A DNA stretch of 64,000 nt from Gloeomargarita lithophora Alchichica-D10 (GTDB taxonomy: Bacteria; Cyanobacteriota; Cyanobacteriia; Gloeomargaritales; Gloeomargaritaceae): positions 2,367,958-2,431,957 of the forward strand of contig NZ_CP017675.1 in the NCBI RefSeq assembly GCF_001870225.1, written 5' to 3'. The first letter of the stretch is position 1. The number at the start of each line of letters is the position of its first letter. Positions 59,684 through 63,660 of the stretch are shown here, piece after piece. The translations under genes were made by a program, and so were the position numbers. The notes under the pieces are model-generated. The model saw only the letters and a program-made list of their open reading frames with translations, ran no database searches and was not told the DNA's origin.

Positions 59684-59730
59684 TGTGGTTATATTATCTA
59701 AAACTTTGACATCGGTTGCGTACAACGCAC

Positions 59731-60387
59731 ATGACCCATCATATACTTCTGGTGGATGACGAACCGGGACTGCGGCAGGCGGTGCAAGCCTATCTGGAAG
59801 AAAGTGGTTTTACGGTGACGGCGGTGGCCAATGCCCAGGTGGCTTGGGAATTTTTGCAAAACCAAAAACCAGACCTGGTGGTTTCTGATGTAATGATGCC
59901 CCAGGTGAGTGGTTATGAATTTCTCAAACAACTGCGGGATGATGCCCGTTTTCAACATTTGCCGGTGGTTTTTCTCACCGCCCGGGGCATGACCAAAGAC
60001 CGCATCAGTGGGTTTCGCTCTGGGGTGGATGGTTATATTGCCAAACCCTTTGACCCGGAGGAATTGGTGGCGGTGATTGGGAATCTTTTACGCAAAAATG
60101 AACCGCAACCCACGGATATGGCACAGGAATTGGCGGAAATTAAGGCACTTTTGGCACGGCAAGGGGGAACTATTACGAAAGAACCGCTGGATTTGGATTT
60201 AACCCCCAGGGAACGCAGTGTTTTGGAACTATTAGCGCAGGGGTTGATGAACAAAGAGATTGCCCACCGGTTGGAAACCAGCGTGCGAAACGTGGAAAAA
60301 TATGTTAGCCGTTTATTTAGCAAAACCGGCACCAACAGCCGCACCGAATTGGTACGTTTTGCCCTGGAAAACGGGTTGGCGAAGTAA
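59731..60387 (+). CDS. rre1: NarL-type response regulator Rre1 (Ycf29)
   Basis: 218 residues. The receiver has LLVDDEPGLRQAVQAYLEES, the phosphoacceptor in DLVVSDVMMPQVSGYEFLKQ and VFLTARGMTKDRISGFRSG with KPFDPEELVAV. A linker leads to a LuxR-type helix-turn-helix (LTPRERSVLELLAQGLMNKE, then RNVEKYVSRLFSKTGTNSRT). This is the conserved cyanobacterial and plastid Rre1/Ycf29, partner of Hik2/Hik34 in stress and redox signalling. The ATG at 59731 fits the family start. Confidence 0.88.
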   Translation: MTHHILLVDDEPGLRQAVQAYLEESGFTVTAVANAQVAWEFLQNQKPDLVVSDVMMPQVSGYEFLKQLRDDARFQHLPVVFLTARGMTKDRISGFRSGVDGYIAKPFDPEELVAVIGNLLRKNEPQPTDMAQELAEIKALLARQGGTITKEPLDLDLTPRERSVLELLAQGLMNKEIAHRLETSVRNVEKYVSRLFSKTGTNSRTELVRFALENGLAK

Positions 60388-60458
60388 TTTTCCTGGGATT
60401 GCCAATCCAAGGGCGGAGGGACTCCGTATCATGGATGTTCCCGATGGAGATAATCCAA

Positions 60459-61253
60459 ATGAAGATTCGCATTGCGGCGACCTTGGCTGTTTTGGCCGTT
60501 GTAGGGGCGGTGGTGGGCGCAAAAGTATTCAAAAGCAACAATCCCGCCATTGCCGATAGTGGTGTTATTGCCGGTAACCCCTGTGCTGGTAAAAATCCTT
60601 GCGCCGGTAAAGCTAACAACCCCTGTGCTGGTAAAAATCCCTGCGCCGGTAAAGCTAATAACCCCTGTGCTGGTAAAAATCCTTGCGCTGGTAAAGCTAA
60701 CAACCCCTGTGCTGGTAAAAATCCCTGTGCCGGTAAAGCTAACAACCCCTGTGCTGGCAAAAATCCCTGCGCTGGTAAAGCTAACAACCCCTGTGCTGGC
60801 AAAAATCCCTGCGCCGCCGCCAACCCCAAAGTGCGGATTCGCCAAGGGGCAAAACATGAACAGGTTTACAACCAATTTGGCCGGGGTATTGCCCTCAAAG
60901 GTCAAGACGTGGTGGCCTATTTCACCCAAAACCGTGCCGTGCCGGGGAACAGTCAATTTACCCACCAATGGCAAGGGGTGACGTGGCAATTTGCCAGTGC
61001 CGCCAACCGGGATAAATTTGCCCAAAATCCCCAACAATATGCGCCGCAATATGGGGGGTACTGTGCCAAAGCCGCCGCCGAAGGTAATTTAGCCAAAACC
61101 GACCCGGATGCCTTCAAAGTTGTGGACGGTAAACTTTACCTCAACTACGATAAATCCGTGCAGGCGCAATGGAACCAAAATGTCCCCGGTAATATCGTGG
61201 CCGCCAACAAAAACTGGGATAAAATCCTCACCAACCGGGAGCTTTATGAATAA
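60459..61253 (+). CDS. YHS-domain protein with Cys-rich NPCAGK repeats
   Basis: 264 residues. An N-terminal hydrophobic segment (AATLAVLAVVGAVVGAKVF) is a signal peptide or anchor. Residues 40-121 are twelve NPCAGK-type units arranged as NPCAGKNPCAGKAN pairs, giving twelve evenly spaced Cys. The C-terminal part is a YHS domain: GIALKGQDVVAYFTQNRAVP, WQGVTWQFASAANRDKFAQN and YGGYCAKAAAEGNLAKTDPD. YHS domains bind metal or heme-like groups. The Cys run suggests metal binding or redox sensing outside the cytoplasm. Confidence 0.85.
   Translation: MKIRIAATLAVLAVVGAVVGAKVFKSNNPAIADSGVIAGNPCAGKNPCAGKANNPCAGKNPCAGKANNPCAGKNPCAGKANNPCAGKNPCAGKANNPCAGKNPCAGKANNPCAGKNPCAAANPKVRIRQGAKHEQVYNQFGRGIALKGQDVVAYFTQNRAVPGNSQFTHQWQGVTWQFASAANRDKFAQNPQQYAPQYGGYCAKAAAEGNLAKTDPDAFKVVDGKLYLNYDKSVQAQWNQNVPGNIVAANKNWDKILTNRELYE
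60576..60821 (+). repeat. 42-bp tandem repeat inside the YHS gene
   Basis: Nearly six copies of a 42-base unit (AACCCCTGTGCTGGTAAAAA, then TCCCTGCGCCGGTAAAGCTA and AC). Third-position changes (TGT/TGC, GGT/GGC) vary between copies while the peptide stays fixed, so selection has kept the protein repeat. Unit number may differ between strains. Confidence 0.85.
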
Positions 61254-61345
61254 GTAACGTTGCATAATTACTAGGGTGGAAGCTGGGGTGATAATTGACC
61301 TGGTTTTTCACCCTGGGATTTTCGCTGGGCAAATGAGGTTCACCG

Positions 61346-61939
61346 ATGCACTGGTTGGTTGATAACCATAGTAATATCCTGCCCTTGGCGACTAAACCCT
61401 GGCGCCCCTACCGGGGTACCTATAGGCTGTACCGATTTTTGACGGACGTAGAAGATATTTTGGCGGCGACCCCCGATGACCAGGAGCGGTTGGGGCTGAT
61501 TTGCCCTTTGTTGGCACGGCTGATCCAGGATTCCTTTTGGCTAGAATTGCCCGACCTTACCCCCGACCCGGAGACCGGCTGGGCAATCCAGACCCTTTAC
61601 GATGAACCGGAATTTCCCTTGACGGTGCAGGTGGTGGCCTGGAATCCTGGCAGTGTGTCCCCGATTCATAATCACGGCACCTGGGGGGTGGTGGCGATGC
61701 TTAGCGGTCAGGAACGCCATCCCCTCTGGCAACGCACGGCGGAACACTCTGAACGGGTGATCAACCACGCGGAATTGACGCTAGGGGCAGGGGATATGGT
61801 CGCTTTTCTCCCCTCAGCCATTCACAGTTTGCACACCCTCGGTTCTGAACCCAGTATGAGTTTGAATGTGTATGGGGAAACGGATTTTCGCCGCCGCTGG
61901 GAATTTGACCCGGTGCATCACACCGCTACCCTATTCTAA
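61346..61939 (+). CDS. Cysteine dioxygenase-family cupin protein
   Basis: 197 residues. The cupin metal site is VSPIHNHGTWGVVAMLSGQE with two His, and a later His in PSAIHSLHTLG. An N-terminal helical stretch (TDVEDILAATPDDQERLGL) and SMSLNVYGETDF fit the COG5553 cysteine dioxygenase-like group. The substrate in cyanobacteria is not established. The ATG at 61346 is clear. Confidence 0.8.
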   Translation: MHWLVDNHSNILPLATKPWRPYRGTYRLYRFLTDVEDILAATPDDQERLGLICPLLARLIQDSFWLELPDLTPDPETGWAIQTLYDEPEFPLTVQVVAWNPGSVSPIHNHGTWGVVAMLSGQERHPLWQRTAEHSERVINHAELTLGAGDMVAFLPSAIHSLHTLGSEPSMSLNVYGETDFRRRWEFDPVHHTATLF

Positions 61940-62003
61940 ATGCAATCCATAGGGTATTCTAACGAGGGATTGTTCTCTACCCATTACCTGGGTAATTGCC
62001 CCT

Positions 62004-63233
62004 ATGCCCTCGATTGAATTGGTGGGATTTGTCGCCGGAATATTACTGCTGGTGAGTATTTTTGCCAGCAAATTAGCTAATCAGTTTGGTGTGCCCTCTC
62101 TGTTGTTATTTCTATTCACCGGTTGGTTGGTGGAACACTTCACCGCCATTGATTTAACCAATCCCGCCATCGCTAAGTTTGTGGGGGATTTTGCTTTAAT
62201 TTTTATTATTTTTACCGGGGGATTGGATACCCGTTGGCAACAGGTGAAGCCGGTGATTTTCTCCGGGGTGAAATTAGCTACTTTGGGGGTATTACTCACC
62301 ATGCTTTTGATGGGAATTTTTATTTGGCTAATTTTAGGTTCCTACAGTACCTTTTCCCTGGGAACCGAGGGTTTACCCCTCAATAAAGCCTTTCTTTTGG
62401 CGGCAATTATTTCCTCAACCGATGCGGCGGCGGTATTCTCTGTCCTGCGCTCTAGCCGTACGGAATTGCGGGGGAATTTACAACCTCTTTTGGAACTCGA
62501 ATCTAGTAGTAATGACCCGATGGCTGTGCTTTTGACCACGACGATTTTGAGTCAAATGGCGGGGGAAAATATCTCGATTTTAGCCAGTGGTATGATGCTG
62601 ATTTCCCAACTATTGATTGGCACGTTGTTGGGGTATGGGTTGGGACGATTGGACAGCTATTTACTCAATCATCTGGGGTTGGCGACCCAGGGGCTTTATG
62701 CGGTGGGTTCGCTTGCTTTGGTTTTATTTATTTATAGCTTTAGCGTTTTCCTCAATGGTAATGGCTATCTGGCGGTTTATGTGGCGGGGTTAGTATTAGG
62801 CAATCATCCCCTCATTCACCGGGAATATATTAGTAATTTCCACGAAGGTTTCACTTGGTTGATGCAGATTATTATGTTTGTCACCCTGGGGATGCTGTCC
62901 GTACCCTACCAGGCGACCTTGGGTTCTTTGGCACTGGTGGCGGTGATTATTGGTTTGTTTCTCATGTTTGTCGCCCGCCCGGTGAGTGTGTTTGTGAGTT
63001 TGGCGGGCAGTGGTATCCCCTGGCGTGAACAGGGATTGATCGCTTGGGTGGGTCTGCGGGGGGCGGTGCCGATTGTTTTGGCAACCTTTCCCTTGGCCCT
63101 GGGGATGGAGCAGGCGGGGGAAATGTTCGTGGTGGTCAGTATCCTGGTGGTCATGTCCCTGCTGGGGCAAGGCTTTACCCTCGCGACCGTCGCCCGGTGG
63201 CTGGGGTTGACCGCTCCCGGTGAAATAACTTAA
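62004..63233 (+). CDS. Potassium or sodium/proton antiporter (CPA1 NhaP2-like)
   Basis: 409 residues with about thirteen helices. GLDTRWQQVKPVIFSG, ISSTDAAAVFSVLRSSRTEL with the Asp pair region, and LELESSSNDPMAVLLTT with the ion-binding ND motif are typical of NhaP2/CvrA-type antiporters, as is GLRGAVPIVLATFPLALG. It lacks a C-terminal TrkA domain. Ion preference cannot be told. It probably aids pH or salt balance. Confidence 0.9.
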   Translation: MPSIELVGFVAGILLLVSIFASKLANQFGVPSLLLFLFTGWLVEHFTAIDLTNPAIAKFVGDFALIFIIFTGGLDTRWQQVKPVIFSGVKLATLGVLLTMLLMGIFIWLILGSYSTFSLGTEGLPLNKAFLLAAIISSTDAAAVFSVLRSSRTELRGNLQPLLELESSSNDPMAVLLTTTILSQMAGENISILASGMMLISQLLIGTLLGYGLGRLDSYLLNHLGLATQGLYAVGSLALVLFIYSFSVFLNGNGYLAVYVAGLVLGNHPLIHREYISNFHEGFTWLMQIIMFVTLGMLSVPYQATLGSLALVAVIIGLFLMFVARPVSVFVSLAGSGIPWREQGLIAWVGLRGAVPIVLATFPLALGMEQAGEMFVVVSILVVMSLLGQGFTLATVARWLGLTAPGEIT

Positions 63234-63291
63234 CAAAATGTAATGATTCATGTAATAATTAGCAACAACATGAGTAAATCGAGGTTTTGAC

Positions 63292-63660
63292 ATGGGCAAA
63301 CTGATGGAAAAATTCAATGTGAATCCCACCGGAGCGGGTACGTTTGGCTTTACCCATTTCGCCGAGGTGTGGAACGGGCGGTTGGCGATGGTGGGCATTA
63401 TTTGTCTGGTAGCGGGGGAAGTCACCACCGGCAAAGGTCAGTTGGCGCAGATGGGCATCGTCGGTCGGGGTGCCGGTTTGTTGGTGGTGCTATTGCTGGT
63501 GGGTTTGACCGTGGCCTCGATGTTGGGCTACTACGCCGTTGGGATGGCGCAACAGATGGCACTCACGGAATCGGAAAATTCAACAACCCCTGTTCCGGCA
63601 GGTAGCCCCGAAACTGCCCCGTCTGCCCCAGTACCAACAGCAGGGACACCGACCAGCTAG
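63292..63660 (+). CDS. High-light-inducible protein with an extra membrane helix
   Basis: 122 residues. The first part carries the chlorophyll-binding motif FAEVWNGRLAMVGIICLVAG (ExxNGRxAMxG). A second hydrophobic helix (GRGAGLLVVLLLVGLTVASM) follows, then a Pro- and Ser-rich tail after residue 85. Typical HLIPs are 50-70 residues with one helix, so this is an elongated form. It should bind chlorophyll and carotenoid in thylakoids and protect against excess light. Its last 98 bases overlap the convergent GH57 gene. Confidence 0.88.
   Translation: MGKLMEKFNVNPTGAGTFGFTHFAEVWNGRLAMVGIICLVAGEVTTGKGQLAQMGIVGRGAGLLVVLLLVGLTVASMLGYYAVGMAQQMALTESENSTTPVPAGSPETAPSAPVPTAGTPTS

Follow-up and report, generated by a model that had tools for sequence, protein, structure and literature searches.

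A putative exported cysteine-array module joined to a YHS domain and partnered by a thiol-dioxygenase-family cupin

Judged by its sequence, the protein encoded at positions 60459 to 61253 of the window (the whole 64-kb stretch of DNA analysed) belongs to a broad group of Cys-array proteins matched by none of the family models applied here. Sequence comparison likewise presents the array as a widespread module, with the YHS domain as one of several attachments. The array and a neighbouring cupin of the thiol dioxygenase family appear to be a functional unit. On the best reading of these data, the array would be a disordered polythiol module that is exported and serves soft-metal or thiol homeostasis in the envelope. 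The gene is laid out as follows.

60459..61253, forward strand: coding sequence of 264 aa with signal sequence, 12-Cys array and YHS_seleno domain; its start matches those of the orthologues in alignment A5.
60459..60554, forward strand: signal sequence, residues 1-32, probable cleavage between AIA and D; residues 6-18 form a hydrophobic helix in the structure model.
60576..60821, forward strand: Cys array of six NPCAGKNPCA-type pairs, 12 Cys.
60888..61223, forward strand: YHS domain-containing (seleno)protein domain NF041384, residues 144-255; 158 bits, folded in the model.
61062..61064, forward strand: C202 of the GGYC motif in the YHS domain, invariant across 16 aligned relatives.

The order given in the original prediction, an export signal followed by Cys repeats and a YHS domain, was confirmed, the signal by sequence and the domain by PF04945 and NF041384. 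The AIAD site was also present in the G089 orthologue. Twelve evenly spaced NPCAGK units had been described; there are twelve Cys units, arranged as six 14-residue pairs, but only eleven read NPCAGK and the last reads NPCAAA, and the spacing is regular but not even, as the Cys-to-Cys steps alternate between 6 and 8 residues. The whole protein contains 13 Cys, the thirteenth being C202. Tandem Repeats Finder placed the underlying repeat (period 42, 5.7 copies, 93% matches) as the strongest array within the window. Five nucleotide columns vary among the five full 42-bp units, and pairwise comparison gave 24 silent and 0 replacing differences. The chance of this all-silent outcome is about 5e-4 under uniform mutation and, by hand calculation, (1/3)^5 = 0.004 if only transitions occur. 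Because all between-unit differences are silent at so low a chance probability, selection on the array peptide, as earlier proposed, is a reasonable suggestion with moderate evidence from few changes.

In the structure model the array was disordered (pLDDT about 27-41) and the YHS part was folded (pLDDT 70-87). A fold search with the whole-protein model returned nothing significant, the similarity of the model to toluene monooxygenase hydroxylase was weak and only suggestive (VIA Z 4 to 5), and phmmer found no match for the whole protein in the PDB. Pfam matches of the array to Cornifin and SUEL lectin were low-complexity matches below the cut-offs and were rejected.

The protein scored 30.8 bits against Pfam PF04945 (YHS; cut-off 30.3) and 158.4 bits against NCBIfam NF041384 (cut-off 70), covering model positions 2-113 of 113, which assigns it by profile to NF041384, the YHS domain-containing (seleno)proteins. 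GxU is listed as the Sec motif of YHS selenoprotein members (PMC13188914), and the GGYC of the window protein is the Cys version of GxC/U, with C202 at the Sec position. The protein thus resembles this family in its full-length domain match, its Cys at the GxC/U position and its predicted export, and differs from it in the extra 12-Cys array ahead of the domain. An array was found in 8 of the 16 NF041384-type relatives examined, the window protein counted, and was missing from the other 8, and it was gained or lost at least twice within the YHS family. Among cyanobacterial YHS relatives the arrays hold 5 to 25 PC units; a close counterpart in Oscillatoriales cyanobacterium USR001 (L123) has nine NPCAGK units followed by YHS. 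According to the original prediction, a Cys ladder of this kind was not known from any described YHS protein. No description of one was found in the open-access literature searched, which also yielded no description of NPCAAK arrays or of DUF6969, but such proteins are common. A Mycobacterium phlei cyclase has a YHS domain that responds to Cu2+, and transition-metal binding has been shown only for a YHS protein other than that of the window (PMC4626032).

A degenerate pattern for NPCA[A/G]KNPCA, scanned over public genomes, identified at least 119 stretches. The matches listed include Alpha-, Beta- and Gammaproteobacteria, Rokubacteria, Nitrospinota and cyanobacteria, and [N/D]PCA arrays were present in more than 100 bacterial contigs. 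The search for arrays elsewhere in cyanobacteria that had been recommended therefore found them, in several phyla as well, and this occurrence in many other bacteria ruled out an array unique to the strain or to cyanobacteria. Some arrays stand alone; others are fused to YHS, thioredoxin-like, DM13, cupredoxin, SoxA/TsdA-type cytochrome c or P460-like domains. Across 182 distinct frames the constant features were P-C, preceded by N or D and followed by A. Cys made up 17% of array residues (median 9 Cys), with almost no His or aromatics, and 51% of Cys steps were of 6 residues, 12% of 3 and 0.1% of 2. Array charge is unconserved, because many cyanobacterial arrays have Asp, Val or Ala in place of Lys. 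Array proteins are often lipoproteins, and several homologues carry a lipobox Cys in place of the signal cleavage site, which supports export. One cyanobacterial gene (L257, genome G061) has 26 PC units, nearly all PCAS and without Asn or Asp before the Pro, and adjoins an array-cupredoxin fusion.

The gene downstream of the YHS gene is a conserved partner of array genes.

61346..61939, forward strand: cupin of the thiol dioxygenase family, supported as an array partner by co-occurrence, adjacency and a PDB profile match.

A profile of 25 cupin homologues matched 3-mercaptopropionate dioxygenase (3uss/4tlf) at 4e-18, 8vni at 1e-15 and CDO at about 1e-5 in the PDB, where its matches include mercaptosuccinate dioxygenase and cysteine dioxygenases. 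The residues of the three-His iron site and the active-site Tyr (H108, H110, H160 and Y176) were invariant in the 25 homologues. By sequence and active-site residues the cupin falls in the thiol dioxygenase family and is predicted to oxidise a thiol to a sulfinate. It shares the profile match and the invariant His and Tyr with the 3-mercaptopropionate, mercaptosuccinate and cysteine dioxygenases, and is unlike them in being a constant gene partner of Cys-array proteins. We know of no description of such a constant pairing.

When the same 96 genomes were searched with the cupin and with the array pattern, the cupin was found in 19/19 array-positive genomes versus 18/77 pattern-negative ones (Fisher 3e-10). 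At genus level, where relatedness is only partly controlled, the figures were 13/13 versus 13/44 (4e-6). Inspection beside cupins and homology revealed arrays in eight of the 18 cupin genomes that were pattern-negative; these eight were left out of the co-occurrence test. In 18 genomes, an array gene and the cupin were no more than about 1.5 kb apart (G000, G017, G019, G021, G023, G028, G029, G038, G048, G050, G056, G063, G072, G073, G082, G083, G089 and G094). As the adjoining arrays carry a YHS, thioredoxin-like or cupredoxin domain, or none, the cupin link follows the array and not YHS. Since the cupin tracks arrays whatever the attached domain, array and cupin appear to be a functional unit.

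Other genes near arrays were counted at 119 loci among the matches listed, 102/119 of them with a called array gene. Because these counts were made in 8-kb stretches without a background model, they are leads only. DUF6969 (PF22308) was encoded in 40 of the 119 (L038, L040, L042, L046-L051 and 31 others), followed by ECF sigma factors (15), a cupredoxin-fold protein (11), DUF3179 (10), multihaem cytochromes (10), FGE-like proteins (9), DUF302 (7) and YeeE-type sulfur transporters (6). One four-locus neighbour cluster had no Pfam match. The recurrent clusters identified included no P-type ATPase, RND pump or multicopper oxidase. MerR-family, MerA-like/VTT and ECF-sigma genes lay near some arrays, and DsbD_TM, thioredoxin, peroxiredoxin-like, YeeE-type sulfur transport and SelD-fusion genes recurred. 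Around the array gene of the window there is no adjoining DsbD or thioredoxin gene and no FGE-like gene.

The cupredoxin-fold neighbour was modelled with confidence (pLDDT 87), and among solved structures the model matched EfeO best (Foldseek 2e-6), followed by many cupredoxins; the protein has no recognisable type-1 copper motif. A cupredoxin is fused to arrays in two cyanobacteria (G048 and G061), and the cupredoxin-fold protein was not found in the window genome. Best CopS/CopR-type models for a heavy-metal two-component system beside array-thioredoxin genes scored below the cut-offs, and the system was not used as evidence.

FGE/EgtB-superfamily proteins adjoin arrays in both Pseudomonadota and cyanobacteria, and DUF3179 and FGE-like genes occur beside arrays or the cupin in cyanobacteria too. 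Exported FGE-like proteins near the cupin (L205, L206 and L215, in genomes G034, G084 and G019) are related to those adjoining arrays in Pseudomonadota; their C-terminal Cys pair presumably differs from that of true FGE. Cupin and DUF6969 were compared as a possible single family and showed no relationship (hhalign probability 0.1%). A plasmid search with DUF6969 returned Azospirillum and Sinorhizobium relatives and one array locus on a Skermanella plasmid; one annotated Azospirillum stretch with a DUF6969 relative names no array. Skermanella mucosa plasmid pSM-3 (L253, 7941-10605) carries, one after the other, DUF6969, a Cys-array protein that stands alone and is annotated as hypothetical, DUF302, an ECF sigma factor and a short frame annotated as NrsF. 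Oxidoreductase/SelD-type fusion genes adjoin array loci at L041 (3815-6094) and L057 (1100-3400). Given these fusions and the selenoprotein members of the YHS and DUF3179 families, a selenium theme is possible.

The YHS and cupin genes lie in a lineage-specific insertion bounded and shared by the following genes.

59716..60387, forward strand: LuxR-type response regulator, conserved left border of the insertion.
62004..63233, forward strand: potassium/proton antiporter, part of the same insertion, with no array link elsewhere.
63292..63660, forward strand: high-light-inducible-type protein, conserved right border, directly after the regulator in two congeners.

YHS gene, cupin and antiporter were taken as a lineage insertion because the regulator directly precedes the high-light-inducible-type gene in G003 and G006. 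Seven relatives from the same family gave no match to the antiporter, which appears to have arrived with the YHS-cupin insertion. The YHS array gene was absent from six congeners, and in one of them, G002, a degraded stump corresponding to the signal-sequence region is left where the gene would be expected (71% over 83 bp, 41 bits versus at most 21 in 100 shuffles). This stump suggests that the gene is older than the split from G002 and was probably lost in that sister species, with separate gain and decay as the alternative. Absence of the repeat from close relatives with no phenotype had been named as counting against the original prediction. With six congeners lacking the gene, one of them retaining a stump, this objection applies in part: the gene is dispensable in the genus, but this does not show it to be functionless. 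The interval 60388-63291 is a variable slot between regulator and high-light-inducible gene (L189, L190, L193 and L194), empty in G003 and G006 and filled in G002 by the decayed stump and unrelated genes. In G004 it holds, by eye, an SQR-like oxidoreductase, an ArsR-type regulator, a haem-domain protein and a ChrA-like transporter.

We tentatively propose, with somewhat less than even confidence, that the exported disordered polythiol array binds soft metal, Cu(I) first, for the attached domain, and that the cupin belongs to the same system. In the periplasm or thylakoid lumen, soft metal ions would most likely be bound and buffered by the array thiols, and the attached domain, here YHS, would use or hand over the metal or its redox state. 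The cytosolic cupin would probably act on an accompanying thiol. We infer export from signal and lipobox sequences, as we do the reduced state of the array thiols, the metal binding and the cupin substrate. Consistent with metal buffering are the real array with signal sequence and YHS, the conserved P-C context, the predicted disorder, a PC-unit number of 5 to 25 as expected of a dose-like binder, the cupredoxin-fold neighbours and fusions, the MerR-family, MerA-like/VTT and ECF-sigma genes, the cupin co-occurrence and the Cu2+ response of the M. phlei YHS domain. Against it stand the absence of a recurrent efflux pump or multicopper oxidase from the clusters identified, a cupredoxin without type-1 motif and missing from the window genome, the 6/8 spacing, the recurrence of SoxA/TsdA-type cytochrome, YeeE, DsbD_TM and thioredoxin, and the probable loss in a sister species. 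Of the roles first thought plausible, an exported metal store is still plausible given the lipoboxes, signal sequences and cupredoxin-fold partner, but no metal-efflux pump recurs among the neighbour clusters identified and sulfur/thiol genes are as frequent; a copper/mercury-type sensor found no support.

The array Cys could instead form an exported thiol-redox or reactive-sulfur relay passing electrons or sulfane sulfur, which we consider rather unlikely. DsbD/thioredoxin-type partners would keep the Cys reduced, the thiol dioxygenase would clear them, and YHS, DM13, thioredoxin and cytochrome would be redox outlets. Fusions to thioredoxin-like, DM13 electron-transfer, SoxA/TsdA-type cytochrome c and P460-like domains, the recurrent DsbD_TM, thioredoxin, peroxiredoxin-like, YeeE-type and SelD-fusion genes, and the family of the cupin all agree with such a relay. 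A relay explains neither the P-C-A context nor so large a number of Cys, the window lacks an adjoining DsbD or thioredoxin gene, and metal is indicated by the cupredoxin and YHS partners. We somewhat favour Cu(I)-type buffering over a sulfur/redox relay.

It is doubtful, at a lower level again, that [N/D]PCA arrays with their cupin (in cyanobacteria), DUF6969 (in Pseudomonadota) or FGE-like (in both) partners constitute an undescribed envelope system, the array being enzymatically matured into, or serving as, a mobile metal/sulfur module on YHS, thioredoxin, DM13, cupredoxin and cytochrome domains. Quite improbable is an array that is the substrate for enzymatic Cys modification by a RiPP-like route without MNIO enzymes, modified by the cupin, the FGE-like exported protein or, in Pseudomonadota, DUF6969. 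The partner link does track the array rather than the attached domain, FGE/EgtB-superfamily genes lie beside arrays in both phyla and DUF6969 in 40/119 listed loci; but the window has no FGE-like gene, cupin and DUF6969 are unrelated, and known thiol dioxygenases act on small thiols. A low-complexity linker or structural spacer, expanded by slippage and with no thiol-specific role, would fit the tandem 42-bp repeats of variable copy number, the gain or loss of the array at least twice among YHS relatives and the absence of the gene from congeners, but is very improbable given that every between-unit difference is silent, that unrelated fusions from different phyla retain the Cys and their P-C context and that one partner enzyme follows the arrays.

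The bufferin/MNIO route was rejected for the window genome (3,049,282 bp, one contig): the complete genome had no MNIO/DUF692 (PF05114) match, and BufA2 (NF050166) scored 17.6 bits against a cut-off of 60. An MNIO survey (PMC12452194) contained no NPC proteins. Bufferins (BufA1/BufA2, Buf_EGKCG) resemble the array proteins in their export, repeated Cys motifs, proposed metal chelation and ECF-sigma genes near some relatives, whereas the window array differs in motif and repeat length and lacks an MNIO/DUF692 gene. Bacterial metallothioneins (SmtA/BmtA) have high Cys content, presumed soft-metal thiolate binding and dense CxC/CxxC-type clusters. The window array shares the first two but, with steps of 6 and 8, has no such clusters and was not assigned to them; it is also predicted to be exported, long, disordered, almost free of His and fused to other domains. 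Scs and DsbD-thioredoxin copper and thiol systems may be analogous, as array-thioredoxin fusions adjoin a DsbD_TM gene in other cyanobacteria; they are absent from the window.

The array-cupin link is the most valuable result and points to an undescribed extracytoplasmic handling of reactive thiols or soft metals. The constant cupin partner offers a concrete handle, a thiol dioxygenase tied to Cys-array proteins that is testable at the bench. If the proposal holds, the orphan families YHS_seleno, DUF3179, DUF6969, cupredoxin-like and FGE-like would be tied to one physiological theme, and bacteria of several phyla would have a modular exported polythiol tag for managing extracytoplasmic soft metals or reactive sulfur.
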